50,132 bases of DNA from contig JAFGDY010000113.1 of NCBI GenBank assembly GCA_016931895.1, forward strand, positions 1-50,132, in the 5' to 3' direction. Both the position numbers and the translations under genes were made by a program. Origin of the DNA: Anaerolineae bacterium. Its GTDB lineage: Bacteria > Chloroflexota > Anaerolineae > 4572-78 > J111. The notes beneath the pieces were generated by a model, which was given only the letters and a program-made list of their open reading frames with translations, did not search any database and was not told where the DNA came from. Of this stretch, positions 11,001-33,392 are shown one piece after another (positions within the stretch are counted from its first letter, which is position 1; the number at the start of each line of letters is the position of its first letter).

Positions 11001-11041
11001 TATGATTTTACATCCGAAAACAGCCCTTGGAGGTGGACAGA

Positions 11042-11671: not shown

Positions 11672-11721
11672 CTAACAGATAACTTAACAATGATTAATTA
11701 CCCAACAGGGGCAGACAACGA

Positions 11722-12597
11722 ATGAAACATACCCTGTTGATCGTTGAGGACGACCTGGACACCTCGGAGATGCTCCGGGTCTATTTTGAAGCACAAGGGT
11801 ATCGAATTGTTACCGCAGGAGGCGGACAGGAGGCATTGGAGAAATGTCGGGGTGAACTTCCCGACCTGATCCTGCTAGATGTCCGCCTTCCTGATATTGA
11901 CGGTTTTGAAGTAGGCCGGCACCTGCAAGACGATGTGCGGACCAGCCGCCTGCCGGTTATTTTTGTTACCGAGCGCCGCGAACGGGACGACCGCATTGTT
12001 GGCCTTAAACTGGGCGCTATTGACTACATCACCAAACCGTTTGACGTGCAAGAACTGCGCTTGCGCGTGCGCAATGCCCTCCGCCGGGCCGGCAGCCAGA
12101 ACAATCCTATCACCGGCCTGCCCGGCGAAAAGCTCACCAGCGACCGGCTTGGCTTAATGTTGGAACGTGAAACCTGGTCGGTTCTGGCGGTCAATATTCG
12201 CGGCCTGGATAAATTTAATGAGATTTACGGCTTTGTGGCCCGAGACGACGTATTGCGGGCTATTGCCCTCACCCTGACCAGCGCCGTTGACGAATTGGGC
12301 AGTATTGACGACTTTGTGGGCCATCCGGCAGAAGAGCAGTTTATCATCATTACCGTGCCCAACAAAGGCGCGCAGTTGAGCCGTCAAATTGAAGAGCGGC
12401 TTAAACAGGCCATGACCTACTTTTACCCCATTCACGACCGCGAAACAGGCTACGTGCAGCGCGGCGGTGAGGATGGGGAAAAAGTGGAAGTGCCGTTTAT
12501 GGATGTCTCCACGGTTATTCTCTCGCAAAAACACGAAAATTTCTCCAGCGTTGCCAGTTTGCGCAAGGCGTTGAGTCAGCCGCTCAAAACTCAGTAG
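11722..12597 (+). CDS. response regulator, REC plus degenerate GGDEF-like domain
   Basis: Encodes 291 residues. The receiver (1-120) is complete: E9/D10/D11, phospho-acceptor D53, T83, K106 in DYITKPF. The rest starts with NPITGLPGEKL, the lead-in of GGDEF domains, but the catalytic GG(D/E)EF is replaced by GHPAEEQF, so it should not make cyclic-di-GMP. It may bind a nucleotide or act through protein contacts. It is in an operon with V4R-1. A close paralogue with the same degenerate layout is at 23821. A strong terminator follows. Confidence 0.85.
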   Translation: MKHTLLIVEDDLDTSEMLRVYFEAQGYRIVTAGGGQEALEKCRGELPDLILLDVRLPDIDGFEVGRHLQDDVRTSRLPVIFVTERRERDDRIVGLKLGAIDYITKPFDVQELRLRVRNALRRAGSQNNPITGLPGEKLTSDRLGLMLERETWSVLAVNIRGLDKFNEIYGFVARDDVLRAIALTLTSAVDELGSIDDFVGHPAEEQFIIITVPNKGAQLSRQIEERLKQAMTYFYPIHDRETGYVQRGGEDGEKVEVPFMDVSTVILSQKHENFSSVASLRKALSQPLKTQ

Positions 12598-18485: not shown

Positions 18486-18514
18486 TTGACTTAATGCACG
18501 CGAACATGTATAAT
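18486..18514 (+). promoter_or_regulatory. promoter of the DUF4388/GTPase genes
   Basis: TTGACT (18486-18491), 17-nt spacer, perfect TATAAT (18509-18514). A second extended -10, TGGTATAAT, follows at 18523-18531. Confidence 0.85.
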
Positions 18515-18565
18515 AGGCCATCTGGTATAATCTACAAAGTAACCCTCTGGTTGCGGTAGGTAGGA

Positions 18566-19396
18566 ATGGCGTTAAAAGGAAATCTGCGAGATTTTAGTAC
18601 CACGCAGCTTCTCAATTTAGTTAATCTGGCTCGGAAAACGGGCAAGCTAACTGTTAATGGTCAAGAACAAAAAGCCGTTCTGCATTTTCGAGAGGGCAGA
18701 TTGATTCATGCCTGCACCAACGCCGACGAAGGCCATTTAACGGCGATGTTGTTGAGAACGGGCAAGTTAACTGAAGAGCAGGCTTCAACAGTTAGCAGTA
18801 AGTCCGGCGGTTCATCCTCAGACAAAGTGATGGGCAAGTATTTAATGGATGCCCGCCTGGTATCCAGAGACGATATTGTCCAGGGTGTTAAGGATTACAT
18901 GTTAGAAATTGTGTATAATCTTTTCACCTGGGACGAAGGGGAATTCTTTTTTGAGCAGGATATGTTGCCCTCCAGCGATAGAATTACGGTGCCCCTGAAT
19001 CTGGACAATGTAATTCTGGAAGGCAGCCGGCGCATCCAGGAATTTGATAAACTGCAAGATGAACTGCCCGACCTGGCCAAGATAGCGCTTAAAATTACGG
19101 ATAAACCCTTGCGTGATGTTAAACTTACCCAGGATGATTGGCGCGTTATCTCCCATATCCACCCCCGTAACACGGTTAAACAAATTGCCCAAAACAACAA
19201 CATGGACGAATTTCAGATTAGAAAAATCGTTTATGGCATGTTGCAGGCCGGGTTAGTAGAAACAATTATCCCTGAAGGCATGGAGCCTAAAGAAAGAACG
19301 CCGGTTACGCGCGCCGGCCGGCGGGCGGCCAGCCAATCACCTGCGGAAAAACGCAGCGTTGTCACCAAACTGATTGATCGCATTAAACGGATCTAA
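18566..19396 (+). CDS. DUF4388 (PATAN) protein with C-terminal winged-helix-like region
   Basis: Encodes 276 residues. The N-terminal ~105 residues show the DUF4388/PATAN pattern: LKGNLRDFSTTQLLNLVNLARKTGKL, VLHFREGRLIHA, then YLMDARLVSRDDIVQGVKDY with EGEFFFEQD. Residues ~190-240 (WRVISHIHPRNTVKQIAQ, MDEFQIRKIVYGMLQAGLVE) look like a winged helix, and the tail is basic. PATAN domains are signalling adaptors often found with receivers and small GTPases. The gene for a CvnD-like GTPase follows 120 nt later, supporting a shared pathway. ATG 18566 has TAGGTAGGA. Confidence 0.85.
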   Translation: MALKGNLRDFSTTQLLNLVNLARKTGKLTVNGQEQKAVLHFREGRLIHACTNADEGHLTAMLLRTGKLTEEQASTVSSKSGGSSSDKVMGKYLMDARLVSRDDIVQGVKDYMLEIVYNLFTWDEGEFFFEQDMLPSSDRITVPLNLDNVILEGSRRIQEFDKLQDELPDLAKIALKITDKPLRDVKLTQDDWRVISHIHPRNTVKQIAQNNNMDEFQIRKIVYGMLQAGLVETIIPEGMEPKERTPVTRAGRRAASQSPAEKRSVVTKLIDRIKRI

Positions 19397-19516
19397 GTGA
19401 TTTGTTTTTAATAGTGGTTTCAAACGGGTATTTGCCGTTGCCGGTAGCACTAATTTGTCACCACTTGATTTATAAAACGATAATTTCAAAGTCTTTATTT
19501 GAGGTGGGTCAATTCG

Positions 19517-20059
19517 ATGCAAACCGTAAAAATGGTCGTCACGGGCCCCTTTAGTGCCGGGAAAACAGAATTTATCAGCAGTGTCAGCGAGATTGACGTT
19601 GTGACCACGGAACGGAAAATCTCCAGCGATGCCGAACGGGTTAAAGAAGAAACGACTGTGGCCATGGATTTTGGTCGGATTACGGTGGATGATGACCTGG
19701 TACTTTATCTGTTCGGCACGCCCGGACAAAGACGTTTTGACTTTATGTGGGAAATTTTGTCGGAGGGCATGCTTGGTTTTGTGGTGCTGGTAGATAGTGT
19801 CAGGCCTGAAACGTTTCGGGAGGCCAAGCATATCCTGGAGGTTTTCCGGGGATATGCTACCACGCCTTATGTTGTGGCGGCCAACAAACAGGATATGCCT
19901 GACGCCTGGACCCCCGAAGACCTGAGGATTGCTTTAAAGATAGATAAAGAAATCAAAGTGCTCAGTTGCGTGGCCCTGGACAAGGAAAGCGTTAAAAACG
20001 TGTTGCTTGAATTGCTTTACTCTATCTTAGAGAAGATGCAGGTGGAGGAAGAGGGATAA
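19517..20059 (+). CDS. small Ras-like GTPase of the CvnD/conservon type
   Basis: Encodes 180 residues from ATG 19517 (GAGGTG 10 nt upstream; an in-frame TTG six codons earlier is less likely). The G motifs are P-loop GPFSAGKT (10-17), the conserved VAMDFGRI strand, G3 as FGTPGQ (67-71) in place of DTAGQ, and G4 NKQD (123-126). This set, including the FGTPGQxRF motif, matches the CvnD GTPases of Streptomyces conservons and relatives. There they act with a histidine-kinase-like protein, a roadblock protein and DUF742. Here the roadblock and DUF742 partners are absent and a DUF4388 protein sits upstream instead. Confidence 0.9.
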   Translation: MQTVKMVVTGPFSAGKTEFISSVSEIDVVTTERKISSDAERVKEETTVAMDFGRITVDDDLVLYLFGTPGQRRFDFMWEILSEGMLGFVVLVDSVRPETFREAKHILEVFRGYATTPYVVAANKQDMPDAWTPEDLRIALKIDKEIKVLSCVALDKESVKNVLLELLYSILEKMQVEEEG

Positions 20060-20303
20060 ACAGTTTTTTTAACAAAAGTCATACCCAGGCGACAATCACC
20101 CAAAACCGCCTGGAATTGAGCGCAGGTTTAGATTAGGTAAGGGTCAAGGATTGTTTGGGTGTAACAAAACACTTTACAATCCCCTTTTCCACGAGCGAAT
20201 TATTAGGCGCATTTTAACAATTATTGGCTATTGAAGGTAATTTTGGGGCAGGATGATGATTTAGCTTCTGAACGTGGCGCTCCGGTGGTATTGAGGCTAA
20301 CCC
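20060..20303. other. intergenic region, nothing recognised
   Basis: 244 nt between the GTPase and hydrolase 1. I saw no convincing promoter, terminator or RNA structure. Confidence 0.4.
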
Positions 20304-21107
20304 GTGAGTTCTATAGTAACTGACCAGGGAATTGTTCATTATGAGGTCTATGGTCGTGGTCAGCCGGTTATCCTGCTCCATGGATGGTTAGGCTCTTGGG
20401 GATATTGGCTCAGGACCATGGAGTCCCTCAAAAATCAATATCGGTGTTATGCTTTAGATTTTTGGGGCTTTGGCGATTCTGGCAAGCGCCGGAGCAGTTA
20501 TCAGGTAAGTGATTTTGTAAACCTGGTTGAGCAGTTTATGGAAAGACTGGGTATTGAATCTGCCCCGGTGGTGGGCCACTCCATGGGTGGCACCGTAGCT
20601 ATCTCTCTGGCCTTAACTAAACCTGAATGTGTGCAAAAAGTGGTTGCTGTTGGTTCCCCCATTGTGGGAGACTCGCTGAACATTTTTCTTCGCCTGGCGG
20701 GTAAGCCCTGGATTGCCTCACTGGTGTGGCATATGCCTACCGCTTTACAGTTGGGAATCAAAGTTTTTTCCCCTTACGTTGTCAAAGATTGGCCCGAGTG
20801 GTACAAGATGATTACGCGTGACCTGTCGCGCACGACGCTGGAAGCTTTTTTTTTAAGCATCAACTCGTTGCACAAAACTGATCTCAGGCCCCATTTGCCG
20901 GGCATAACCCGGCCTATTATGGGTATTTATGGTGTAGGCGACAATGTAGTTCAACCAAGCCAGGCTTATCTTATTGATAAAAGCGTGCCTGTTTCTCGGA
21001 TAAAAATGATGGCCGGTTCCGGGCACTTTCCAATGTTAGACGAGCCACAAGCTTTTAATGAAAACCTGGCCGAGTTCCTTGCTTTTGGATTTTCGTCGGC
21101 AAATTAA
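20304..21107 (+). CDS. alpha/beta hydrolase 1 (intact catalytic triad)
   Basis: Encodes 267 residues, GTG start at 20304 with TTGAGG upstream. It has the oxyanion motif HGWLGS, the nucleophile elbow GHSMGG (Ser93), the acid in YGVGDNVVQP and the base in GSGHFPMLDE. The helical cap region (LRLAGKPWIASLVWHMPTAL) is hydrophobic, as in enzymes acting on lipid-like or aromatic substrates. No signal peptide. It is a paralogue of 31845-32642, which has lost the serine. It lies in the block with the acyl-reductase-like gene, so an acyl ester or thioester substrate is plausible but unproven. Confidence 0.9.
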   Translation: MSSIVTDQGIVHYEVYGRGQPVILLHGWLGSWGYWLRTMESLKNQYRCYALDFWGFGDSGKRRSSYQVSDFVNLVEQFMERLGIESAPVVGHSMGGTVAISLALTKPECVQKVVAVGSPIVGDSLNIFLRLAGKPWIASLVWHMPTALQLGIKVFSPYVVKDWPEWYKMITRDLSRTTLEAFFLSINSLHKTDLRPHLPGITRPIMGIYGVGDNVVQPSQAYLIDKSVPVSRIKMMAGSGHFPMLDEPQAFNENLAEFLAFGFSSAN

Positions 21108-21218
21108 CATATACGTGCCCCTCGTTCCAAAGCGCAGCCCAACTGCTGGGTTCATCAAAACCGGGTAGGGAATGAGCAGAGGCAATAGTTACGCTGTAAC
21201 TTAAAAAGGATTATATTG

Positions 21219-21247
21219 TTGACTCTTTCTGTTATCCTGTCTATGCT
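21219..21247 (+). promoter_or_regulatory. probable promoter of the LbH/acyl-reductase genes
   Basis: TTGACT (21219-21224), 17-nt spacer, TATGCT (21242-21247) with TATGAT overlapping just downstream. The leader would be about 75 nt. Confidence 0.6.
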
Positions 21248-21327
21248 TATGATTGCGGGATATTTGGGCATATTTGGGGCAAGGGGATCGAACAGATTCA
21301 TTGCAGTTTTATGTTGCACGCTAACTC

Positions 21328-22656
21328 ATGAAGAAGATTATCATTCGGGATCAAACCCTAATTTCACCGTTCAATGAACCTGCGCGTGATTTGCGCATTA
21401 TGAATAAGCCCCTCTGGCTCTACCAGCGAGATGTGCTTAGCCCTTACTGCCGGGAAGAGTTGGAATGTGAATCTTTTAGAAAAATTTTTGCTTTGCCCCC
21501 CCAGTTCCTGTCCGGTGAACTGGTTGTTTACCGGGATAATCTCTTTTTTGACGACTTCCTCTTTGCGGCCTTTATTACCGCCGCCCGCCAATTGAACCGA
21601 CCGGCCCAAATTGCCTTTGCCAAAAACGATGCGGCTATTGTTGCCCACGCCCTGCCCGTTCAAGATGGAATTCGCCCGGCAGGCGAGGTATACGTGGCCG
21701 ATCTTTTTTATTACCCAAACGGCCTCTCCGCCGCCACCGAATCTCCGCAGCCCCTGGTTATTGACACCCAATCCAGAGAAATGGGCTATTACCGCGTGCC
21801 CACTTACATGGCCAACGAACGGGGAGAACTGGGCTTCAAAGTTCCCCTGCGGGCTTTTTTATCCATAGAAAATTGGGTGCATGTGTTTATGGCCAATTGC
21901 CCCTTTGGCGTTTTTGCCCACGGCGCGCGGATTGAAAAATCGCTGGATAATTTTGGCACCATGCTTAAAGTGCTGTGGCACTCTTTGCTGGAGCGCAAGC
22001 AGTTTTTATCCTCTTCGGCGCTGGTAGTGGTGGGTAAAAACACCCAAATTGACCCGGCCGCCGTTATTCAGGGCCCGGCCATTATTGGCGATAACGTGAC
22101 CATTGGCCCCGGCTCGGTGATTAATGCCTGCGTAATTGGCGATAACGTTAACGTGATGCAAGGCACTCAATTGCTGCTCAGTGTGGTGGGCGATGGTTCT
22201 TACCTGGGGTTTCGGGCGGCCCTGTTTATGACCACCTTGATGGAAAATTCGCTGGTGGCCCAAAATACTTGTCTGCAACTCAGCGTAGTAGGCCGCAACA
22301 CCTTTATTGGCGCCGGCAATACGTTTACCGACTTTAACCTGATGGCCAAACCCTTAAAGGTTTTACACCGAGGCGAGTTGTGCCAGGTGGGCATGCCGGT
22401 GTTGGGCGGCTGTGTGGGGCATAATTGTCGCATTGGCTCCGGGCACACCTTTTTCCCGGCGCGCTCGGTAGAATCGGATGTGGTGTTGTTTGCCAGGGAA
22501 GGCCGGACCATAATTACCAAAAATATAGCCTATCAAGATAGCGACCATCACGATTATCCTGATTCCGGCCACGTGGTCCGGTATCACGATGACCCTTTGC
22601 CCGAAGAACCAGAATTCACTTCAACGCCTGAGCCGGTGACTCAATCGGTCACCTGA
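21328..22656 (+). CDS. left-handed beta-helix (hexapeptide repeat) protein with N-terminal extension
   Basis: Encodes 442 residues. Residues ~235-400 are hexapeptide repeats of the LbH fold: IDPAAVIQGPAIIGDNVTIG, then VIGDNVNVMQGTQLL, SVVGDGSYLGF and VVGRNTFIGAGN, as in GlmU-like and acyl/acetyltransferases. The N-terminal ~215 residues (ARDLRIMNKPLWLYQRDVLSPYC, LFFDDFLFAAFITAAR) occupy the position of a nucleotidyltransferase domain but lack an LxxGxGxRM signature, so sugar-nucleotide synthesis is doubtful. An acyltransferase or a lost-activity scaffold are both possible. It is followed 27 nt later by the acyl-reductase-like gene, so the two are probably co-expressed. Confidence 0.75.
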   Translation: MKKIIIRDQTLISPFNEPARDLRIMNKPLWLYQRDVLSPYCREELECESFRKIFALPPQFLSGELVVYRDNLFFDDFLFAAFITAARQLNRPAQIAFAKNDAAIVAHALPVQDGIRPAGEVYVADLFYYPNGLSAATESPQPLVIDTQSREMGYYRVPTYMANERGELGFKVPLRAFLSIENWVHVFMANCPFGVFAHGARIEKSLDNFGTMLKVLWHSLLERKQFLSSSALVVVGKNTQIDPAAVIQGPAIIGDNVTIGPGSVINACVIGDNVNVMQGTQLLLSVVGDGSYLGFRAALFMTTLMENSLVAQNTCLQLSVVGRNTFIGAGNTFTDFNLMAKPLKVLHRGELCQVGMPVLGGCVGHNCRIGSGHTFFPARSVESDVVLFAREGRTIITKNIAYQDSDHHDYPDSGHVVRYHDDPLPEEPEFTSTPEPVTQSVT

Positions 22657-22683
22657 ACTTGCCTGCGCCAGAGAAGATAAGCT

Positions 22684-23787
22684 ATGGACAATTTTGCCTT
22701 TATCATTCATCCGGTTCACCCCAAACGAGACGTGCAGCGTAAGTACCCGTTGTTGGGCAAACTACTGCCGGAACCGGCCATTCACTACTTTTCCCAATTC
22801 TTTCCCCCGGTTTATATTTCTCACATTACCGGCATCACCTCCGCAGCCACCGGCAAAGAAATAGAAGGCTGGTTTATTGCCTGTCCCTTTACCCCCAAAC
22901 AAATGATCTCGCTGCCCCCGGAAACCGTTTACAAAAAGGTGATTGCCACCGGAAAATTGGCCCAAAAACTGGGAGCCAAAATATTGGGGCTGGGCGGGTT
23001 CACCTCGGTGGTGGGTGACGCCGGAATAACCATTGCCCAACACCTTGAAATTCCCGTAACCACGGGCGATAGTTACACCATTGCTACCGCCGTGGAAGCC
23101 ACCCTCAAAGCGGCCCGGCGCATGAACATTGATCCCGCCGGGGCCACGGCGGCGGTGGTGGGCGCCACGGGTTCCATTGGCCGGGTGTGCGCGCAATTGT
23201 TGGCCCGCCGGGTGCCGGAAGTGATCCTCATTGGCCGCCGGCTAGATGCCTTAAAGCAGGTGCAAACCCTGGTCGCGGCCCAGAGCCAGGCCCGCGTTAA
23301 AGTGAGCACCAACATGCAAGATCTTCAACAAGCCGAGATGGTGCTGACCGTAACCAACGCCATTAAAACCGTTATTGAACCGCACCATCTCAAAAGTGGG
23401 GCCGTAGTGTGTGATGTGGCCCGGCCCAGGGATGTGTCGCGCCGGGTGATTGAAGAACGCAACGATGTGCTGGTGGTAGAAGGGGGCATGGTGAGAGTGC
23501 CGGGGCCGGTTAATTTTAATTTTGATTTTGGCTTTCCGCCCGGTATGGCCTATGCCTGCATGGCCGAAACCATAACCCTGGCCCTGGCCGGTTGTTATCA
23601 AAGTTACACGCTGGGCAAGAATATAAAATTAGAACAGGTAGAAACCATGGCCGCAATGGCCGGTCAACATGGGTTTGAAGTAAGCGGCTTTCGCAGTTTT
23701 GAATTGCCGGTAACAGACGAGCAAATTGCCCAGATCAGGCAAAATACGGTGCAAAAACAGGCTCGTTTAAAGTGGGCCAGCTCGTAA
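22684..23787 (+). CDS. long-chain acyl-[ACP] reductase (AAR)-like oxidoreductase
   Basis: Encodes 367 residues. It aligns by eye along its length with cyanobacterial acyl-ACP reductase AAR: ITSAATGKEIEGWFI near the start, LGLGGFTSVV, Rossmann motif VVGATGSIGRVCAQLL, and the C-terminal block YACMAETITLALAG followed by TLGKNIKLEQVETMAAMAGQHGF. The catalytic acyl-thioester cysteine of AAR (Cys294 in Synechococcus) corresponds to Cys292 here, and the NADPH-binding GATGxIG is intact. The expected reaction is NADPH-dependent reduction of a fatty acyl thioester to a fatty aldehyde. No aldehyde-deformylating oxygenase gene is present in the window, so the fate of the aldehyde is open. Automatic annotation would probably call this a shikimate dehydrogenase-like protein. 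Confidence 0.8.
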   Translation: MDNFAFIIHPVHPKRDVQRKYPLLGKLLPEPAIHYFSQFFPPVYISHITGITSAATGKEIEGWFIACPFTPKQMISLPPETVYKKVIATGKLAQKLGAKILGLGGFTSVVGDAGITIAQHLEIPVTTGDSYTIATAVEATLKAARRMNIDPAGATAAVVGATGSIGRVCAQLLARRVPEVILIGRRLDALKQVQTLVAAQSQARVKVSTNMQDLQQAEMVLTVTNAIKTVIEPHHLKSGAVVCDVARPRDVSRRVIEERNDVLVVEGGMVRVPGPVNFNFDFGFPPGMAYACMAETITLALAGCYQSYTLGKNIKLEQVETMAAMAGQHGFEVSGFRSFELPVTDEQIAQIRQNTVQKQARLKWASS

Positions 23788-23820
23788 ATCAATTTTAAAT
23801 ATTTTAGAAAGAGGTAAACA

Positions 23821-24723
23821 ATGGGTAAAGGCCGTATCCTGGTGGTAGAAGACGACATTGATATTTCCAAAATGTTGCGCATCTATTTCGACTCGCAAGG
23901 GTATGAGGTGTTGGTGGCCAACCGGGGTAACGATGCCCTGGAGATGTGTCAAACCAAATTGCCCAACGTGGTGGTGTTGGATATCCAGTTGCCGGATATT
24001 GACGGTTATGAAATATGTCGCATCTTGCGCAGTAATACCCGCACCAGCTACGTGCCCATTATCTTTCTTACCCAGAAAGATGAGCGTAGCGATAAAATTG
24101 CCGGGCTGGAACTGGGCGCCGATGATTACATCACCAAACCGTTTGACATTGAGGAACTCAAATTGCGGGTTGAGGGCGCCATTCGCCGCTCGCAGCGTGA
24201 AGCGCTTACCCACCCGGTCACCAATTTGCCGGCCGGCAAACTCATCGAGGAGCAACTCAAAAGAGTAAAAGACTCAACCGAACCCTGGCTTTTCCTTTAC
24301 TTTGGCATCCGCTATATCAACGCTTTTAAAGAAATAGCCGGCCCTCTCCAGGTTAATGAAGTTTTGGTTTTCCTGGCTGATATTATGCGGGAAGTGGTCA
24401 ACGAACAAGGCTCCTTAAACGATTTTATCGGCCAGGCGTCTGATAATGATTTTATTGTCATTACCACGCCTGCAAAAGCCTCAACCATTTGTCACATGGT
24501 CACCCAACGGTTTAACAAAGAAAGCGATGTCTTTTATCCCTTCCCCATCCGGGAAGCCGGGAAAGTGACCTACGAGGATATTGACGGCCAGGCCCACGAA
24601 TCACCTTTAATGGAGTTGGCCGTTGGCGCGGTCTCAAGCCAAGATGGCCCATTTGCCGATATTGTGCAAATTACCGAAGACGCGGCAGAAAACCGGCGGC
24701 GTAATTCTGGTTGTCCAAAATAG
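23821..24723 (+). CDS. response regulator, REC plus degenerate GGDEF-like domain (paralogue)
   Basis: Encodes 300 residues. The receiver is intact (E10/D11/D12, phospho-acceptor D54, T84, K107 in DYITKPF). The C-terminal domain starts HPVTNLPAGKL and has IGQASDNDFIVIT where GG(D/E)EF should be, so it is non-catalytic. The same layout is found in 11722-12597, next to V4R-1. It lies 33 nt after the acyl-reductase gene, with GAAAGAGGT before the ATG. It is the likely output or relay for the giant kinase immediately downstream. Confidence 0.87.
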   Translation: MGKGRILVVEDDIDISKMLRIYFDSQGYEVLVANRGNDALEMCQTKLPNVVVLDIQLPDIDGYEICRILRSNTRTSYVPIIFLTQKDERSDKIAGLELGADDYITKPFDIEELKLRVEGAIRRSQREALTHPVTNLPAGKLIEEQLKRVKDSTEPWLFLYFGIRYINAFKEIAGPLQVNEVLVFLADIMREVVNEQGSLNDFIGQASDNDFIVITTPAKASTICHMVTQRFNKESDVFYPFPIREAGKVTYEDIDGQAHESPLMELAVGAVSSQDGPFADIVQITEDAAENRRRNSGCPK

Positions 24724-24908
24724 TCTGGTTGGCAGAACCGTTATGGGGGTAGGGTTTTTGACTTAACCGGCAGGCCGCTTTTTTTTGCCCGCTTTATCTC
24801 TTTAAATGTAGACAAAGCCCAAGTCTTCAATTGTTCGAACTTTATCAACTTAACCAGTAGGTTTGAAATTGCCACAAGGCTTGTTTTGAATTTGCCGAGG
24901 GGGCAATT

Positions 24909-27900
24909 GTGAGTAGTAATGAATTATCAGCCCGGGTTGATCAATTGAGTCATTTGCCAGGCGATACCAAAAAAACTTTATCAAATTTGGGCGACTCGCC
25001 TGAACAGAATACGTCTGCGCCCCCTTCCCCAAAGGCAGATTTAAACCAGGCATTAATCATTGTCAACCAAATTGGCCAAGCCCTGACCACCTCTCTTCAC
25101 CTGTTAGATACTTCCTCTATTTGCCACGCCGTGCTTGACAGTCCGCAGTTAAAGGAACTATTTCCGTTTGACGCGGCGGAAATATGCCTGTGGGACGATC
25201 AAACGGATACGTTGACCGCCAAATTGCGCGTGCCGGAAGACCAGCCCGACCTTCAAGCTTACGACCGCACCTATCAGCCGCACGAAGGTTACACCGGCTG
25301 GCTGGCCACCCACCAAGCTCCCCTGCTGATTAACGATACCCGGCAGAACTCTAAAGTTACGCCCAAGATGGGCCTGGATAATTTCCCCTATCGTTCCTTA
25401 ATGGGCATGCCGCTGAAGGCGGGCCTGAAGTTTTTGGGAACCTTGGAATTGGCCGCTGCGCCGGTTGGGGCTTACAGCCAACAACACTTGATTCTGCTGG
25501 AGGTTGTGGCCAATCAAATGGCCATTGCCCTGGACCATGCTCGCCTGTTTTATGCCACCCAGCATAAAGTCTCCGAGTTATCCCTGCTGTTTGATGCCAG
25601 CCGCGAGTTGTCGGCCACCCTGTCTTATGATGAACTGCTGCACAGTTTAACCCGGCAAATGATTAAAGCCTTTCCCGCCGACGACTGCGCCATTTTTGAG
25701 TTTGACGAAGCAACCAGCGCCTTGAATTTAGTGCATCAATATCGCGATACTGCCCCCGCTACAGCCGCTGTGTTCCCCGGCCTTAGTAAAGAAACCTTTG
25801 CCCGCGCCCTGGCCACCATCCCGCTTTGGGAAAATTTGTTAAAAAAACAGGTGCCCCTCATCATTCGCACCGATGACCCCCTGGCTAATTTGGCCGAGGT
25901 AGATTTGCTTAAAGAATGTCAATGTGGCACGATGGTGGGCATCCCCTTAACCAGCCGCGATAAAATGACCGGCTTGTTGGCCCTCTTTTCGGTTGATGCC
26001 CAGGCTTTCACCGACGATCAAATTCTCCTGGCGCAATCGCTGGCCGGCCAGGCCAACATAATGATGGAAAATGCCCGTCTCTTTAGCCTGACCGACCAGC
26101 GGTTACAACGGCGCATTGACGAACTGGCCGGCTTGCAGCGGGTTAGCCGCGAGTTAAACAGCACCCTTGATCTGGACATAATTTTAGATCTGGTTTTGGC
26201 CGAGGCCTTGCGGGTGACCCGGGCCGATTTGGGGCAAGTCAATCTATACGACCCCCGGACCGGTAAACTGACGGCGCACAAAGAACAAGGTGGAACTGGC
26301 GGCTCTATCCCGCCGGCAAACGAAGCATCACCCGTTGGCCAAAAAATTATGGAACGCGCCCTGGATACGGGGCAGTCAATTTTAATTTCTGATGTACGGG
26401 AGAATGAGGATACCCAGGGTTTTGGCGCCCATACCCATTCCCGGGTGGTGGTGCCCATTTACTATGGCAGCGAGCCGGCCGGCGTGATCAACCTGGAAAG
26501 CAACCGGCGGCATGGCTTTACCCAAAACCAACTCCGTTACCTGGAGGCGCTATCTAACCAGGCGGCGGTGGCCATTGGCAATGCCCAGGCGTATGAGGAA
26601 CAGCGGCTTGAACGCGAGCAGGCCGGCCGGCGCATTGACCAACTCTCCCGCCTGGCCGAAATTAGCCATATCTTCCGCACCAACCGGCCCCTGTACGAAG
26701 TGCTGGAAGACATTGCCTATGCCATTATTGAGTCCGTAGGCTACCGGGTGGTGCTCATTAGCTTGGTGGCGGACGAGCCGCCCGCGCTTTCTCTTGAGGT
26801 GGGAGCCGGTATTCCGATTGCCGAATTTCGGGCGTTTCGCCAGGCAATAGGCCCACAGCCTTTGGCCCATTTGCCAAAAATTATGCTGGCCGACTTTTGC
26901 TTGAGCCGGTCTTACTTTATCCCCGTTGAGCGCAAAGAAGTGTGGCAGGGCAAATTGGATATTTCCTACCTGGCCCGGCAAGCCTCCCCTGAAAATATGG
27001 TTAAACCGGACAATGGCCTGGCCTGGCAGGCCGGCGATGTTTTATTTGTGCCTTTGACCGATGTGGAAAACAACATCATTGGTTTGCTTACCGTTGAGGA
27101 CCCCGACTCCGGGTTGCGGCCCGGTATTTCGTCGGTGGAAACGCTGGAAATTTTTGCCAATCATGCGGCCACGGCTATTGAGAATGCCCGCCTGTTTGAG
27201 CGCGAGCAGCAGCGCCGCCGGTTGGCCGATACGCTGCGCGGCGTGGCCGAAGCAATTAGTTCCAAGCTTGAGTTTGATGAATTATTGAATATTGTATTGC
27301 GCGAACTGGCCAATGTTTTGGCCTACGATATCGCCTCAGTGTATCGGCTGGAAGAGGACCAATTGGTGGCGGTTGGCGGGCGAGCCTGGGAGCACAGCCG
27401 GCAGATGTTGGAGATTTCTTTTTCAATGATGGACGTCAACCCCCATCGGCTGGTTATTGAAACGCAAGAGCCGGTGTTGGTTAAGGATGCTCGCCGGCAA
27501 TATCCCCAGGTTTTTGCCAAACCGCCTTATAATCGGGTAAAAAGTTGGTTGGGCGTTCCCCTCACTTATGGAGCCAATATCTTGGGGTTGATGTCGCTGG
27601 GCAGCGCCAAGGCAGACGTTTTTAGCCAGGAAGATGCGGGGGTAGTGTTGGCCTTTGCCAACCAGGTGGCGGTGGCTATGCAAAACGCGCGCCTGTTTGA
27701 CGAGGCCCGCCAGCAGGTGCGCCAACTGGCGGCGCTGACGGAAGTGGCCCAATCACTGAACCGGGCCTTGGACCTGAACGAAGTATTGAACCTGGTGCTT
27801 GACGCCGTTTTTGACCTGGCAGGCTGCGAGCAGGGCACCATTTGGTTGGTGGATAATTATACCAATACGGTTAAAATTGCCAATACCAAAAACATCTCAG

Positions 27901-30900
27901 ATTTTATGGTTGAGCTGGTCAACGAAAGCGCCATCTCGGTCAATTCCGAACCCTTTGCCCCAGTCATCCAGTCCGGCGACGTGCGGGTGGTTGAACGCAG
28001 CGTAACCAAAAAAGACGATATTGCTCATTATGGCCTGCCTTTCCCGGATGATGTTACCTACGTGCCCTTAAAAACGGAGCAAGGCGTGATTGGTATTTTG
28101 GCCCTGGAAACCGTTATTCACCATAAAAACATGCTCCAGTTGGTCACTACCCTGGCCGACCTGGCCGCCATTGCCATTGACAATACCCGCCTGCTGGAAA
28201 ACACCCGCCAGCGGGCCAATGAGATGCAACGCCTTTACAATTTGGGGGTTGAAGTAAGCGGCATGCTGGAAGTGCAGCAAGTGATGCATTCCGTGATAGA
28301 AACTACTATCACCCTCACCGATACCCAGCTTGGCGTAATTTTGTATTGGGAAGAAGAAACGCAGCAATACCTGGTTGATAGCGCCACCACGGCTGAAAAA
28401 TTGCGTTCCAAACTCACCTTTGACCGTCTGGAAGCCGCCGCCAACAACAGTGGCACGTCCTTGTGGTATGAGGTCACCCAACAGGTGATGGCCGACGAAG
28501 CGCCGGTCAATGTGAATCTGTCGCCCCAGTTAAGCGAGCCATCTGCCTTGAACCATCTGGAGGCGCAACCGCCCCCGGACCTGCCGGCCGAACACGCTCG
28601 GGCGTTGGGGGTAAGGGCCATGTTGGGCGTGCCCATCAAGGTGCAAAACCAGGCCAATGGCGCTATTTTTGTGGGCAGCCTTGAAGCGCGAAACTTTAAT
28701 GATTACGACCTCCAATTGTTGTCGTTTGTGGCCAACCAGGCAGCCGTGGCCATTCGCAACGCTCAACTGGTGCAACGTTTGAATCGGTTTACCGAGGAGT
28801 TGGAGCAGCGGGTGGCCCAACGCACCGAAGAACTGGCCCAAACTCTGTTAGACTTAACCGAGGAGCGCGACCGGGTGGAAGCCCTGTACCAGATTACGCG
28901 CGAGATTTCGGCCAGCCTGGACCTGGACAGAATATTGACCCAGGCGCTCAGCCTGATCAACCGGGCCGTAGGCATTTCGCACGGTTCCATCCTGCTTACC
29001 AGTCAAGAGACAGGCGGCCTGGTTTACCGGGCTGCCCTGGGCCGGGACACGCCCTTACCCAAAGGCGCTGAAGCCCAAACCGAGCTGGATTATATCTTGG
29101 CCCAGCAAGTGGTTGGAATGCACCAGCCCCAAATTATTGCCGATTTATCCGCAGAGTTGGAAGCTGAAATCCAACCGAAACCCCTTGAACACGGTTCGGC
29201 TATGGCCGTGCCGTTGATTACGGGCGAAGAGGTGGTGGGGGCGTTGTTGCTCTTCCACCCCGACGTTGATTACTTTACCGAGGACCATCTTAAATTGGTT
29301 ATGGCGGCCACTTCGCAAGTGGCCACCGCCATAAATAATGCAGAGTTGTATCGGCTGATCACGGACCAGGCCGACCGTTTGGGCGTGATGCTCCGGCTGC
29401 AAGCGTCGGAAGCGGCTAAAAACGAGGCTATTTTGCGGGGTATTACCGACGGCGTGCTGGTGCTGGATGCCAGCCGCAACATTGTGCTACTCAATCCCAA
29501 AGCGGCTGAAATCTTGGAGATTGACCCTACCGTCGCCGAAAATCAACCACTCGGCCAGATTTTAGGGCAGTCCGCCTCGGCGGCAGCCCTGGAATTGACG
29601 CAGCGTTTTTATGACAACCTGCTCAAAGCGCTGGACGAACTACAAGCCGGCCGGCCCTCGGCCGAGTTTCGCCTGGATGTTGAGCAAAAAGCAGTGGTTG
29701 TCACCCTGGCCCCGGTAGCCCTGGGCGGCGAAGAACGGCCCAGTATTGTTACCGTATTGCGCGACATCAGCAAAGAAGCAGAAATTGAGCGCATGAAAAA
29801 CGAATTTATCTCTACCGTTTCCCATGAATTGCGCACTCCGCTCACTTCAATTAAGGGCTATGCTGATTTGCTGGTTTCCTCTAACGCTGCCGCCCGGCTG
29901 GGCGAACTCAATCCGATGCAGCGCCGTTTTGTAGAGGTTATTCAATCCAATACCAATCGCCTGGCTCACCTGGTGAATGATATTCTGGAAATTTCTCGCA
30001 TTGAAACCGGCCGGGTTAAGCTGGACCTGGAGGCCCTGGACCTGGTCAGTCTTATCCAGGAGGTCGCTATTTCCTTTGAAGGACAACTCGTGCAAAAACC
30101 GATGAACTTTTCTTTGGATGTGCCCGATTCCTTGCCCCCGGTGTATGCCGATAAAGCCAGGGTGGTGCAGATATTGGTCAACCTGATTGGTAACGCCTGG
30201 CGTTATACTCCCGCAGGCAAAGACATTATTGTGCGCGCCCAGGTTAAAGACGACCGGTTTGTGCAGATAGATGTGGAAGACACCGGCATTGGCATTGTGG
30301 AAAAAGACCTGGCGTACATTTTTGAGCGGTTTTATCGTTCTGAGCGGGGAGAAGTGGAGATGGTGGATGGCACCGGCCTGGGCCTGTCCATTACCAAAAG
30401 TTTTGTGGAGATGTTGGGCGGCAAAATTTGGGTGGAAAGCCAGGTGGATGTTGGTTCTACCTTCAGCTTTACCTTGCCCCTGGAAGCGGCCAGGGATATT
30501 TTGGCCGCAGAGGCCGCCCAACCTGACCAGGCGCAGGTATTGCTAATTGAAGACGACCCGGCGGTGGTACAGATGTTGAAGCCCCGTTTGGAAGAAAAAG
30601 GTTACTGGGTAGTGGTCAAAAGCAAAGGACCGGCTGCTTTAGAATTTGCCCGTAACTCAAGCCAAACCTTGAGGGTGATAATGTTAGATATTCTTTTGCC
30701 GGAAACCAATGGGTTTGAGTTACTAACGCAGTTCAAAAAAAACAAAGCCACCGCCGATATTCCTATTTTTTTAACGGCCTTGTTTGTAAATCAAGAGGAT
30801 CAGGCTTTGGGTTTGGAGATTATTGATTACATTTCAACCTCTTATGCCGAAACCCAAATATCGGAAATTGTGGGGCTGGCCCTCAACCACTCCAAAACCT

Positions 30901-31295
30901 TACAGGCCGACAACGGCCAGGAAGTTTTACCCCAGGACCACGTGTTGATTGTGAACGATAACACCGAAACGGCCAGTTGGCTCAAAGAAACACTCCATAA
31001 TTGCGGCTGTTTTGTGCAGCGAGCCTTTAACAGCCAGCAGGCCATAGATATAGCCGCCAGTAAACCCGATTTGATTTTGGCCGATGCCAACATGCCCGGC
31101 ATTGAGGGCGGAACACTTATTGCCCAACTTCGCCGTACGCCCGAAACAAAAGAGATACCCATTATTGCCATTACCGAGAGCGCGGCGCCGGACGATACGC
31201 TGAAAATATGGCCCATCGGGGGCCGGTTTTTTACGGCAGATACTTTGGTTGCAGAAATTATGCAAATTGAGCATAATTCTAAGCGTGATAAGTAG
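24909..31295 (+). CDS. giant hybrid histidine kinase: ~8 GAF, PAS, HisKA, HATPase, two REC
   Basis: Encodes 2128 residues from GTG 24909 (GAGGGGG upstream). About eight GAF-type modules follow each other (roughly 40-215, 225-395, 410-560, 580-760, 775-935, 945-1100, 1110-1290, 1320-1480), most ending in an A-(I/V)-A-(I/L/M)-x-N/D-A-x-L helix. A coiled coil (EELEQRVAQRTEELAQ) precedes the last GAF. PAS is at ~1500-1615. The HisKA H-box is SHELRTPL with His1639. HATPase is at ~1740-1860 (NLIGNAWRYTP, DTGIGI, GTGLGLSI). REC1 (~1875-1990) has Asp1927 but Thr1977 in place of the conserved Lys. REC2 (from ~2011) has VNDN instead of the acidic pair and no KP motif. There is no transmembrane segment, so it senses cytoplasmic ligands. 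It sits between two receiver genes. Confidence 0.92.
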   Translation: MSSNELSARVDQLSHLPGDTKKTLSNLGDSPEQNTSAPPSPKADLNQALIIVNQIGQALTTSLHLLDTSSICHAVLDSPQLKELFPFDAAEICLWDDQTDTLTAKLRVPEDQPDLQAYDRTYQPHEGYTGWLATHQAPLLINDTRQNSKVTPKMGLDNFPYRSLMGMPLKAGLKFLGTLELAAAPVGAYSQQHLILLEVVANQMAIALDHARLFYATQHKVSELSLLFDASRELSATLSYDELLHSLTRQMIKAFPADDCAIFEFDEATSALNLVHQYRDTAPATAAVFPGLSKETFARALATIPLWENLLKKQVPLIIRTDDPLANLAEVDLLKECQCGTMVGIPLTSRDKMTGLLALFSVDAQAFTDDQILLAQSLAGQANIMMENARLFSLTDQRLQRRIDELAGLQRVSRELNSTLDLDIILDLVLAEALRVTRADLGQVNLYDPRTGKLTAHKEQGGTGGSIPPANEASPVGQKIMERALDTGQSILISDVRENEDTQGFGAHTHSRVVVPIYYGSEPAGVINLESNRRHGFTQNQLRYLEALSNQAAVAIGNAQAYEEQRLEREQAGRRIDQLSRLAEISHIFRTNRPLYEVLEDIAYAIIESVGYRVVLISLVADEPPALSLEVGAGIPIAEFRAFRQAIGPQPLAHLPKIMLADFCLSRSYFIPVERKEVWQGKLDISYLARQASPENMVKPDNGLAWQAGDVLFVPLTDVENNIIGLLTVEDPDSGLRPGISSVETLEIFANHAATAIENARLFEREQQRRRLADTLRGVAEAISSKLEFDELLNIVLRELANVLAYDIASVYRLEEDQLVAVGGRAWEHSRQMLEISFSMMDVNPHRLVIETQEPVLVKDARRQYPQVFAKPPYNRVKSWLGVPLTYGANILGLMSLGSAKADVFSQEDAGVVLAFANQVAVAMQNARLFDEARQQVRQLAALTEVAQSLNRALDLNEVLNLVLDAVFDLAGCEQGTIWLVDNYTNTVKIANTKNISDFMVELVNESAISVNSEPFAPVIQSGDVRVVERSVTKKDDIAHYGLPFPDDVTYVPLKTEQGVIGILALETVIHHKNMLQLVTTLADLAAIAIDNTRLLENTRQRANEMQRLYNLGVEVSGMLEVQQVMHSVIETTITLTDTQLGVILYWEEETQQYLVDSATTAEKLRSKLTFDRLEAAANNSGTSLWYEVTQQVMADEAPVNVNLSPQLSEPSALNHLEAQPPPDLPAEHARALGVRAMLGVPIKVQNQANGAIFVGSLEARNFNDYDLQLLSFVANQAAVAIRNAQLVQRLNRFTEELEQRVAQRTEELAQTLLDLTEERDRVEALYQITREISASLDLDRILTQALSLINRAVGISHGSILLTSQETGGLVYRAALGRDTPLPKGAEAQTELDYILAQQVVGMHQPQIIADLSAELEAEIQPKPLEHGSAMAVPLITGEEVVGALLLFHPDVDYFTEDHLKLVMAATSQVATAINNAELYRLITDQADRLGVMLRLQASEAAKNEAILRGITDGVLVLDASRNIVLLNPKAAEILEIDPTVAENQPLGQILGQSASAAALELTQRFYDNLLKALDELQAGRPSAEFRLDVEQKAVVVTLAPVALGGEERPSIVTVLRDISKEAEIERMKNEFISTVSHELRTPLTSIKGYADLLVSSNAAARLGELNPMQRRFVEVIQSNTNRLAHLVNDILEISRIETGRVKLDLEALDLVSLIQEVAISFEGQLVQKPMNFSLDVPDSLPPVYADKARVVQILVNLIGNAWRYTPAGKDIIVRAQVKDDRFVQIDVEDTGIGIVEKDLAYIFERFYRSERGEVEMVDGTGLGLSITKSFVEMLGGKIWVESQVDVGSTFSFTLPLEAARDILAAEAAQPDQAQVLLIEDDPAVVQMLKPRLEEKGYWVVVKSKGPAALEFARNSSQTLRVIMLDILLPETNGFELLTQFKKNKATADIPIFLTALFVNQEDQALGLEIIDYISTSYAETQISEIVGLALNHSKTLQADNGQEVLPQDHVLIVNDNTETASWLKETLHNCGCFVQRAFNSQQAIDIAASKPDLILADANMPGIEGGTLIAQLRRTPETKEIPIIAITESAAPDDTLKIWPIGGRFFTADTLVAEIMQIEHNSKRDK

Positions 31296-31370
31296 TTTGT
31301 TTGGGGGTCAGCATGAACCTTCGCTTGGCGCTGATGATATAGGATGCAGCGAATAAATGATTCAGGGGAT

Positions 31371-31420
31371 GATAATTGATTAACCATTGGCAATTAATCA
31401 TTCACCATTCACAATTTTTT
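31371..31420. repeat. ATTAATCATT/CACCATTCAC short-word repeat patch
   Basis: Overlapping variants of AATTGATTAACCATT, CAATTAATCATT and CACCATTCACAATT. TGATTAA pairs with TTAATCA around CCATTGGCAA. It resembles the patches at 2020-2080 and 42411-42515. Confidence 0.5.
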
Positions 31421-31438
31421 GGGGAGTAAACGTGCCGT

Positions 31439-31822
31439 ATGAGCAGTCCCTTAATCCTGGTAGCTGAAGATGAAAAGGATATAAGAGAATTAGTTGTTTT
31501 TTCTTTGCAAATCAGCGGTTTTAATGTGGTTGAAGCGCCCAACGGCGAGGAAGCCGTTAAAAAGGCGGTTGAAGTAGAACCGGATCTAATTTTGATGGAC
31601 GTGCGCATGCCCAAAATGACCGGGTATGAAGCCTGCAAGGCCTTGAAAGAACATGAAAGTACCAGCGATATTCCCGTTGTGTTTTTATCGGCCAAGGGGC
31701 AAGAAGCGGAAATCAACGCCGGCCTGGAATTGGGCGCGGTGGAGTATTTGCTCAAACCCTTTGCCCCGGATGAGTTATCGGCCAAAGTCAACCAGATTTT
31801 AACCAAACATGGCAAAATGTAA
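31439..31822 (+). CDS. single-domain response regulator
   Basis: Encodes 127 residues, a CheY-like receiver only: E10/D11 acidic pair, phospho-acceptor D54, S84 in VFLSAKG and K106 in YLLKPF. With no output domain it is probably a phosphate shuttle or a protein-interaction switch. It follows the giant kinase by 143 nt and precedes hydrolase 2 by 22 nt. GGGGAG lies about 13 nt before ATG 31439, a rather long spacing. Confidence 0.9.
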   Translation: MSSPLILVAEDEKDIRELVVFSLQISGFNVVEAPNGEEAVKKAVEVEPDLILMDVRMPKMTGYEACKALKEHESTSDIPVVFLSAKGQEAEINAGLELGAVEYLLKPFAPDELSAKVNQILTKHGKM

Positions 31823-31844
31823 CTGACCCGTTATATTGTTAAAG

Positions 31845-32642
31845 ATGAGCGCCGTTGTAATTGATGGTAGAATTGTACATTATGAAGCCTTTGGGCGGGG
31901 CTGGCCCCTGTTGTTTTTGCATGGCTGGCTAGGCTCGTGGCGTTACTGGATGTCTACCATGGAAGCAATGTCGGACAAACATCGCACTTACGCCCTGGAT
32001 TTGTGGGGTTTTGGCGATTCCGATAAAACCGGTTCCCGTTATAGTGTGCCGGATTACGTGGCTTTGATTGATAATTTTGTAGAAAATATGGGTATCCGCG
32101 AAGCCCCCATTATTGGCCATGCCCTGGGGGCCACCGTGGCCCTGGAATATGCGGTGCGCTATCCAGACCGGGTCAAAAAGATTATGGCCGTTAGCCTGCC
32201 CATAGGGGCCGAAAGTATCAATCGCAATTTGGTTGATTTTGCCAACAATTCGGTGATGGCCAAAATGCGCTGGTGGCGACAGATTACCTACAAGGAAGTG
32301 CAAACCGAAGCCGAAAAAGCCGGCCAGGAAGCCGTGAGCGTTAGCCTTCAGTCGGCGGCCCAAACCGATATTCCCAGCCGAATTCAGAGCATTGGCCAAT
32401 TCAAAGATTCAATGCTGCTGGTTGTTTACGGCGAAAAAGATGATCTGATTGATCCGGCTCCCAGCCGGGAACTGGACGGCCAATGGGACAACGTGCGGCC
32501 CATCGGCCTATCAGAATCAAAACATTTTCCCATGCTGGATGAAGCGGCCAAATTCACCCGCCTGCTCAAAGATTTTCTTGACGTGCAAGACGATTTATCT
32601 GTTTTGGAATTAAAAGAGGAGTGGCGTCGCCGCACGCGCTGA
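31845..32642 (+). CDS. alpha/beta hydrolase 2, nucleophile serine replaced by alanine (pseudoenzyme)
   Basis: Encodes 265 residues from ATG 31845 (no clear ribosome site; coupling to the upstream receiver is likely). The fold motifs match hydrolase 1 closely: LHGWLGSWRYW, LDLWGFGDSD, acid region YGEKDDLIDP and base region SKHFPMLDE. The nucleophile elbow, however, reads GHALGA: codon 93 is GCC (Ala, 32121-32123), where hydrolase 1 has Ser93. The serine-hydrolase mechanism should therefore be lost. The rest is well conserved and the frame is intact, so selection has kept the protein, perhaps as a ligand-binding sensor or a partner of the adjacent V4R protein. Confidence 0.88.
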   Translation: MSAVVIDGRIVHYEAFGRGWPLLFLHGWLGSWRYWMSTMEAMSDKHRTYALDLWGFGDSDKTGSRYSVPDYVALIDNFVENMGIREAPIIGHALGATVALEYAVRYPDRVKKIMAVSLPIGAESINRNLVDFANNSVMAKMRWWRQITYKEVQTEAEKAGQEAVSVSLQSAAQTDIPSRIQSIGQFKDSMLLVVYGEKDDLIDPAPSRELDGQWDNVRPIGLSESKHFPMLDEAAKFTRLLKDFLDVQDDLSVLELKEEWRRRTR

Positions 32643-32675
32643 TTTTTAGCCTGACTCAGCGAATTGACCAAATTA

Positions 32676-32684
32676 TGGTATAAT
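32676..32684 (+). promoter_or_regulatory. extended -10 promoter of V4R-2
   Basis: TGGTATAAT with no good -35 at the right distance, typical of an extended -10 promoter. The predicted start is near 32691. The ribosome site GGGAGGT follows at 32702-32708. Confidence 0.6.
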
Positions 32685-32714
32685 CAACTTACTACAATAT
32701 TGGGAGGTTATCTG

Positions 32715-33338
32715 ATGCCAGCAGATCGTCCAATGTCTAATGCAACCGTTCGGGTGTTATTGGATGCAGTAGAGGAAGTAATGGGAGAAAACGGCACCAA
32801 AGCGGTGTTAAATGCCGGAGGCTTAAAGGACCTGATTGACAATTATCCCCCCAAAGACCTGGAAATGGCTCGCCAATTTTCTGAGTATGGGGCCATCCAA
32901 CAAGCGGTGGAAGATTTTTATGGGCCGCGAGGCGCGCGCGCAATGCTGCTGCGCATTGGCCGGGCCACCTTTCGTTTTGGCTTAAAAGACCAGCCCGCCA
33001 TTTTGGGACTGGCCGGCATTGCCTTAAAAGCTATCCCCGAACAGAAACGAATGAAACTGATCCTGGAAAGAATGGCCTCCGCCGCCACCGACCGGATCAA
33101 TCAACCCAGCCACGTGCGCGAGGAAGACGACGCCTTTTATTACATCCAGGATGAATGTCCCTGCCGCTGGCGGCCCCAACACGATAGGCCCTGTTGTTAC
33201 GTGAGTGTGGGGGCCATTATGGAAGCTATGGCCTGGACCACGGGCAAGGTCTACAAGGTAGAAGAAGTAGCTTGTATTGCTAACGGAGCTTCTAACTGTG
33301 TTTACCGCATTCCCAAAGAATCTGCTGAAGAGGAGTAG
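32715..33338 (+). CDS. V4R-domain protein 2
   Basis: Encodes 207 residues from ATG 32715 (GGGAGGT 6 nt upstream; an upstream in-frame ATG overlaps the promoter). It is a paralogue of V4R-1 along its whole length: VEEVMGENGTKAVLN, DFYGPRGARAMLLRIGRATF, then the V4R cysteine region. Here the cysteines are CPC (148, 150), a CC pair (160, 161), and VEEVACIANGASNCVY (187, 195). The cysteine pattern is shifted relative to V4R-1 (CPVC at 151/154). If a metal is bound, the coordination differs between the two. It is the last gene of the signalling block, closed by a strong terminator. Confidence 0.87.
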   Translation: MPADRPMSNATVRVLLDAVEEVMGENGTKAVLNAGGLKDLIDNYPPKDLEMARQFSEYGAIQQAVEDFYGPRGARAMLLRIGRATFRFGLKDQPAILGLAGIALKAIPEQKRMKLILERMASAATDRINQPSHVREEDDAFYYIQDECPCRWRPQHDRPCCYVSVGAIMEAMAWTTGKVYKVEEVACIANGASNCVYRIPKESAEEE

Positions 33339-33360
33339 ACTTTTTGGTCGGAGATCACAA

Positions 33361-33392
33361 CAGGCCCCGGCAACCGCCGGGGCCTGTTTTTT
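33361..33392 (+). terminator. strong intrinsic terminator after V4R-2
   Basis: An 11-bp GC-rich stem (CAGGCCCCGGC with its complement), AACC loop, followed by six T (33387-33392). It lies between convergent V4R-2 and the M50 protease gene. Confidence 0.95.

Follow-up and report, generated by a model that had tools for sequence, protein, structure and literature searches.

What unites a bacterial locus in which acyl-handling enzymes, a Ras-like GTPase, a predicted sensor of hydrophobic ligands and a very large histidine kinase stand in a single row? The locus lies in a 50,132-nucleotide stretch (the window; GenBank assembly GCA_016931895.1, contig JAFGDY010000113.1, here G000:C113) of an Anaerolineae bacterium of the phylum Chloroflexota, whose 6.06 Mb genome is Anaerolineae-type. 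Ten genes, all on the + strand, span positions 18566-33338: a DUF4388 protein, an MglA-family GTPase, an alpha/beta hydrolase (ABH1), a protein with a left-handed beta-helix (LbH), an acyl-ACP-reductase-like enzyme (AAR), a receiver with a degenerate GGDEF-like domain (RRG), a GAF-rich hybrid kinase, a single-domain receiver (RR), a probable pseudo-hydrolase (ABH2) and a V4R protein. An earlier note on this DNA had listed the same families in this order on one strand, and had read them as producing and sensing a fatty-acyl-derived or other hydrophobic signal. The present analysis upholds a signalling unit that pairs acyl chemistry with a predicted sensor of hydrophobic ligands, while the acyl enzymes lose their place at its centre. 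With slightly better than even confidence, the locus is interpreted as a lipid-linked Ras-like GTPase switch, gated by a roadblock protein and a V4R with a hydrophobic ligand, and connected both to acyl metabolism and to a GAF kinase.

Gene order and the conserved core

A search for AAR orthologues across 120 relatives yielded 40 neighbourhoods, and the cluster is present at about 34 of them; the others comprise a solitary copy (L059) and a distinct, fused AAR paralogue of 720-770 aa (L067-L070, L073). Scanning named genomes with an LbH alignment recovered 80 loci, all from Chloroflexota, most of which carry DUF4388-GTPase-ABH1-[V4R]-LbH-AAR-RRG-kinase-RR-ABH2. This order is held across many families, between sequences of just 45-60% identity. 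Such recurrence at AAR and LbH loci excludes a chance gene order, and comparison among relatives found genes that co-occur and cluster rather than lie scattered. AAR is nevertheless missing from about 15 of the 80 LbH clusters, and in the Chloroflexia clusters that were read the locus is cut to [V4R]-LbH-RRG-kinase, sometimes with ABH2, and AAR is absent. Production of an acyl signal was therefore rejected as the core of the system.

The core was examined in loci read from genomes that have the GTPase and lack LbH. DUF4388-GTPase-V4R occurs in seven loci (L174, L175, L178, L179, L180, L182 and L198), followed in L198 by RRG and a large open frame; L176 reads DUF4388-GTPase-roadblock-V4R, and L181 and L195 read DUF4388-GTPase-roadblock. 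A locus from another class, L169, has DUF4388-GTPase-roadblock-V4R-LbH-ABH-roadblock, so that the roadblock gene adjoins the GTPase in four of these loci (L169, L176, L181, L195). Of 99 distinct GTPase loci, 95 have DUF4388 immediately before the GTPase, and the remaining four begin near a contig end. The core is DUF4388/PATAN, the MglA-family GTPase, roadblock and V4R, and it is more widely spread than the acyl genes. The switch is placed at this core because lineages without LbH and AAR retain DUF4388-GTPase-V4R or DUF4388-GTPase-roadblock(-V4R). A tree of 90 V4R sequences, in which some long branches are of unsure placement, groups the terminal V4R of the window in one clade with GTPase-adjacent V4Rs (97/89 and 100/100). 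Members of this clade also immediately follow the GTPase where a lineage has neither acyl enzymes nor LbH at the locus, which ties V4R first to the GTPase and roadblock.

Co-distribution was followed in a panel of 400 Chloroflexota genomes, with the GTPase counted at E <= 1e-70. LbH is found in 70 genomes, the GTPase in 73, and the V4R family and the specific roadblock in 74 each; of the 77 genomes with any of these genes, 69 have the full set. No GTPase genome lacks the roadblock (73/73), and none with LbH lacks a V4R (70/70). The co-occurrence persists in Chloroflexia despite distant loci, as in G232, where the GTPase lies at 903 kb, the roadblock at 358 kb, V4R genes at 503 kb and 2314 kb, and LbH at 3535 kb. 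Roadblock and V4R are same-strand neighbours in 32 genomes, mostly with 22-62 nt between them. Family f46 is divided, with two genera carrying the whole set of four and three genera carrying none of it. Fisher statistics for these co-occurrences ignore shared ancestry and are descriptive only. V4R, roadblock and a Ras-like GTPase are here genetically tied across one bacterial phylum. The open-access literature yielded no description of V4R joined to an MglA-type GTPase and roadblock, nor of a cluster with LbH, AAR and a GAF kinase, in keeping with the earlier note, whose author knew of no account of the combination.

Table 1. Features of the locus and of the V4R-receiver pair upstream of it, in window coordinates
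Feature	Position	Strand	Remarks
V4Rb, second V4R (paralogue), probably displaced upstream block	11027..11671	+	PF02830 38 bits
RRb, receiver + GGDEF-like, V4Rb partner	11722..12597	+	PF00072 94 bits, PF00990 30 bits
Promoter TTGACT-17-TATAAT	18486..18514	+	11/12 consensus match, tied best in region
DUF4388 (PATAN-type) protein	18566..19396	+	PF14332 95 bits
MglA-family Ras-like GTPase (groups 2-5 type)	19517..20059	+	G2 TT, G3 GTPGQ, G4 NKQD
ABH1, alpha/beta hydrolase	20304..21107	+	PF00561 107 bits; triad Ser93-Asp213-His241 intact
LbH, probable pseudo-nucleotidyltransferase joined to a left-handed beta-helix; hallmark of the large cluster	21328..22656	+	hexapeptide repeats
AAR, acyl-ACP-reductase/PigE-N-type enzyme	22684..23787	+	208 bits to PigE
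RRG, receiver + degenerate GGDEF-like	23821..24723	+	receiver Asp54 invariant; GGDEF signature here SDNDF
GAF-rich PAS hybrid histidine kinase, two receivers	24909..31295	+	no transmembrane stretch
RR, single-domain receiver	31439..31822	+	PF00072 107 bits; Asp54 invariant
ABH2, probable pseudo-hydrolase (GHALG)	31848..32642	+	Ala replaces nucleophile Ser
V4R protein (Bet3/H-NOX superfamily fold)	32715..33338	+	PF02830 33 bits, above cut-off
Intrinsic terminator	33359..33388	+	13-pair hairpin + T run, after V4R

Proposed GTPase switch

V4R domains are regarded as binders of hydrophobic molecules, and their homology to Bet3 has been known since 2008 (PMC2253512). The nucleotide state of MglA-type GTPases is set by roadblock proteins (PMC11016934), and associations of MglA, roadblock and PATAN proteins are likewise already known (PMC4316618). 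In the proposed switch, the Bet3/V4R pocket of the V4R would take up a hydrophobic ligand, V4R and roadblock would jointly control which nucleotide the GTPase carries, and DUF4388 would be the immediate partner or effector of the GTPase. In Anaerolineae, the switch would be coupled to the cytoplasmic GAF-rich hybrid kinase, with outputs through the receiver and receiver/GGDEF-like proteins. ABH1, with its intact triad, and the AAR-like enzyme are proposed to produce the ligand or to use it up; LbH and ABH2 may serve as ligand sensors or scaffolds. Within this scheme we infer the class of ligand, the effect of V4R and roadblock on the GTPase, the coupling to the kinase, the direction of signalling and the cellular output. 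The kinase (2128 aa) combines HisKA, HATPase and two receivers with a GAF array in which each of three GAF models accepts seven stretches and eight GAF C-terminal motifs can be seen by eye; transmembrane-like stretches number zero in the proteins of the ten-gene run.

Several observations weigh against this interpretation. The window's own locus has no roadblock gene, that of its genome sitting apart, at C199, and in Chloroflexia the V4R-LbH-RRG-kinase genes are separate from DUF4388-GTPase. The co-distribution owes something, in part, to shared ancestry. No guanine-nucleotide exchange factor (GEF) or GTPase-activating protein (GAP) activity can be assigned from the fold and Pfam matches. Finally, Foldseek places H-NOX above V4R/Bet3 for the V4R protein, so that the fold alone leaves the ligand unfixed. 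The genetic tie between V4R, roadblock and GTPase opens to direct test the question of whether control of small GTPases by Bet3-fold proteins extended beyond eukaryotes, and DUF4388, V4R and the unnamed LbH family gain predicted functions that can be tested. The carriers seem to include cultured organisms, namely Herpetosiphon, Ornatilinea and apparently Chloroflexus and Roseiflexus.

Acyl-handling enzymes and probable pseudo-enzymes

The AAR protein scores 115 bits against TIGR04058, far under the equivalog cut-off of 450, which marks it as a relative of the cyanobacterial equivalog rather than the equivalog itself; in a search of the PDB it scores 90-106 bits. Its Cys292, invariant in 36 of 36 sequences, aligns with the catalytic Cys294 of the S. 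elongatus enzyme (PMC7089970), and GATGSIG stands at the aligned position of the dinucleotide loop (GATGxIG type). The catalytic residue is retained. The cysteine and the loop are shared with both cyanobacterial AAR and the N-terminal domain of PigE, from which the window's enzyme differs in having no aminotransferase domain and in its signalling-locus setting. No aldehyde-deformylating oxygenase (ADO; PF11266) was found in genome G000, the S. elongatus control being positive, and the cyanobacterial AAR-ADO alkane pathway was rejected on this ground. The triad residues of ABH1 are each invariant among 31 sequences.

The two remaining proteins of this group look like enzymes that have lost their activity. 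The structure model of LbH (predicted local distance difference test, pLDDT, 85) best matches ST0452, with Z 31.8 over 321 residues (1-408), followed by GMPP and eIF2B subunits. GMPPA and eIF2B subunits are regulatory. The LbH protein has no nucleotidyltransferase (NTP_transferase) Pfam match, and the first 40 columns of its alignment, which open MxKIILxDxxxIxPFNEPARDLRIxNKPLWLxQRDVL, do not contain the GxGxRLxPLT glycine-rich nucleotide loop. Since this loop is missing, LbH is probably a dead sugar-nucleotidyltransferase, a pseudo-enzyme; an active sugar nucleotidyltransferase was considered for its ST0452/GMPP-type fold (N-domain and LbH) and rejected. Among 19 ABH2 sequences, the nucleophile position holds Ala in 11, Gly in five, Ser in two and Asp in one, with His kept in 19/19 and Asp in 18/19. 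The family is largely without a nucleophile, and ABH2 is probably a dead hydrolase.

With AAR's cysteine and nucleotide loop kept and ABH1's triad intact, the cluster could also be a lipid-biosynthesis operon with regulators, in which fatty aldehydes or alcohols destined for an unusual membrane lipid are made by ABH1, LbH and AAR, the role of the kinase, V4R and GTPase being regulatory only. AAR always occurs with LbH, in 49/49 AAR genomes of the relatives panel (LbH without AAR occurs in five), and the H-V-L-A genes are closely spaced in relatives, although the start nearest the previous stop was chosen there, which biases towards small gaps. The clusters without AAR nevertheless keep LbH-RRG-kinase, in the 80-locus set as in Chloroflexia, and LbH is apparently, ABH2 mostly, dead as an enzyme; the missing ADO also counts against such a pathway. 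A biosynthetic operon of this kind is regarded as unlikely, though it keeps a real share of the probability.

Three further observations concern these families. A second AAR subfamily (L067-L070, L073; e.g. L067:11800-13989:-) encodes proteins of 720-770 aa with an extra N-terminal domain and a C-terminal tail; it is 38-42% identical in the AAR part and does not adjoin this cluster. In a genome of the same genus, an additional LbH gene lies away from the cluster (L183; G001:C29:14491-15750), and the cluster copy of that genome (L184) is without AAR. In five Chloroflexia loci (L164, L165, L167, L168, L172), LbH-RRG-kinase stands immediately 3' of a uvrA-like gene.

The GTPase and related bacterial systems

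The GTPase gene probably starts at 19517, as marked by the conserved GAGGT...ATGCAAACC. Its G1 motif is GPFSAGKT, and in the alignment the G2 residues T46 and T47, GTPGQ (G3) and NKQD (G4) are all invariant, G2 having Thr where MglA group 1 carries an intrinsic Arg. Under the published motif definitions of the MglA groups (PMC4316618), GTPGQ with NKQD fits groups 3-5, not group 2. A profile search of the PDB gives Arf, MglA and Rab chains as the nearest solved relatives, and a single-sequence search of the PDB gave no match at 1e-8.

The earlier description of a CvnD-type GTPase was thus correct in recognising a GTPase and inexact in its type. Actinobacterial conservons (CvnA-D) share the logic of kinase, roadblock and GTPase, and the GTPase is of the same broad class. 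However, G4 is NKQD (invariant) here and NxFD in CvnD, and no match to DUF742 (CvnC) was found among the cluster proteins scanned; conservon membership fails on both. In addition, the present kinase is of the soluble GAF hybrid type and carries receivers, the roadblock gene lies outside the window's locus, and V4R and acyl enzymes are added.

MglA-MglB of Myxococcus and Thermus and MglA groups 2-5 resemble the present system in a Ras-like MglA-family GTPase, a PATAN neighbour and a roadblock, here a putative partner, and, in groups 2-5, in GTPGQ and the Thr in G2 (PMC4316618). The locus adds V4R, the LbH pseudo-nucleotidyltransferase, acyl enzymes and a GAF kinase to this set; V4R is not mentioned in the text of that survey. 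The likeness, together with the known proximity of PATAN proteins to MglA groups 1 and 5 (PMC4316618), allows a module for cell polarity or motility on the pattern of Myxococcus MglA-MglB, in which GTPase, roadblock and PATAN position pili or gliding machinery and V4R and kinase provide sensory input. No pilus or motility genes were recognised in the loci examined, and the GTPase lacks both the G2 Arg and the TVPGQ of group 1. Many Chloroflexota are filamentous or gliding, but gliding is not known for many carriers. This reading is rather improbable, and it concerns the output, so that it is compatible with the GTPase switch rather than exclusive of it.

Other GTPase loci show neighbours of their own. 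In L200 and L201 (Roseiflexus- and Herpetosiphon-type genomes), a second GTPase, about 50% identical, has its own DUF4388-like and roadblock neighbours. DUF4388-GTPase in L191-L194 (Chloroflexia) lies downstream of a conserved membrane-protein-like gene of 311-329 aa ('YGGQAVLEGVMMRG'), a possible further partner. A gene of 246-266 aa with no family assigned (L126:6091-6891, L134:3731-4510, L153:2230-2970) stands between an upstream roadblock-V4R-RRG block and DUF4388.

Promoter, terminator and probable transcript

The run had been described as bounded by a strong promoter and a strong terminator, and both bounds are borne out. The window and nine relatives of the family share the promoter hexamers TTGACT and GTATAATAGG without change, amid flanking DNA that cannot be aligned, and the promoter thus constitutes a phylogenetic footprint. 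Hairpins like the window's terminator occur at the equivalent place in L184, L034 and L040. In the intergenic gaps that can be aligned, which reach 244 nt, the only conserved elements are ribosome sites and starts, with no conserved internal promoter among them. One footprinted promoter, aligned gaps free of any other and a terminator after V4R make it likely that the ten genes form a single transcript.

The intergenic gaps of 120-244 nt in the window, the partial tracking of clades by the co-distribution and the location of the Chloroflexia pieces at different places would fit several independent transcription units that have stayed together through common descent and serve no joint function. 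Such units are very improbable, given the single conserved promoter, the order kept at 45-60% identity, the co-occurrence of unlinked loci and the joint absence of the genes within family f46.

V4R proteins

The V4R gene probably starts at the ATG at 32715, the longest open reading frame beginning at 32664. The structure model (pLDDT 91) matches H-NOX (Z ~14), Thorarchaeal TRAPPC3 (13.0), Bet3 (12.1) and MopR (11.4). Cysteines 165, 178, 204 and 212, kept in 39-41 of 44 V4Rs, have the pattern of a V4R-type zinc site. That the V4R is a haem gas sensor of the H-NOX kind and the system senses NO or O2 is scarcely credible, for H-NOX chains top the fold ranking but the best two His columns reach only 40-50% of the 44 V4Rs and hold Asp and Tyr in the window, which leaves no conserved His as proximal haem ligand, and the cysteines follow the zinc-site pattern. 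The V4R fold, the cysteines of a zinc-type site and the predicted hydrophobic pocket are common to the aromatic sensors MopR, PoxR, DmpR and XylR; the window's V4R differs from these in being free-standing, with no AAA+/HTH fusion, and in its partners.

Eukaryotic and Asgard TRAPP (Bet3/TRAPPC3 with roadblock/longin, a Rab GEF) offers a further parallel, sharing a Bet3-superfamily fold, a roadblock-fold protein (here a putative partner) and a Ras-superfamily GTPase. Rab GTPases are switched on by TRAPP complexes, whose components are longins and subunits of the Bet3 fold (PMC10933270, PMC11016934). In Asgard archaea, GTPase genes generally lie outside the operons of roadblock or TRAPPC3 genes (PMC10933270). 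The present system differs in having roadblock rather than longin and an MglA-type GTPase. A bacterial counterpart of TRAPP, in which a V4R-roadblock complex would be the exchange factor (or GAP) of the GTPase, switched by a bound acyl chain, is a tentative extension of the proposed switch and is itself doubtful; if true, it would represent lipid-gated Bet3/roadblock control of small GTPases as a dedicated bacterial gene cluster. A short acidic tail closing the V4R (EEE in the window) is present in close relatives, not in all GTPase-adjacent V4Rs. It is reminiscent of the C-terminal glutamates of Bet3 that reach into Ypt1 (PMC11016934) and was not used as evidence.

A second V4R, V4Rb, is encoded upstream of the ten genes with its receiver/GGDEF-like partner, and the V4R-RRG pair is also found in L076, L126, L134 and L153. 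In the V4R tree, V4Rb groups (98/98) with V4Rs of the roadblock-V4R-RRG blocks just upstream of DUF4388-GTPase in L126, L134 and L153, from which the pair at 11027-12597 is probably a displaced part of the system. A third V4R gene of the genome (L208:6693-9057; G000:C270) is the immediate upstream neighbour of a gene resembling those for serine/threonine protein kinases.

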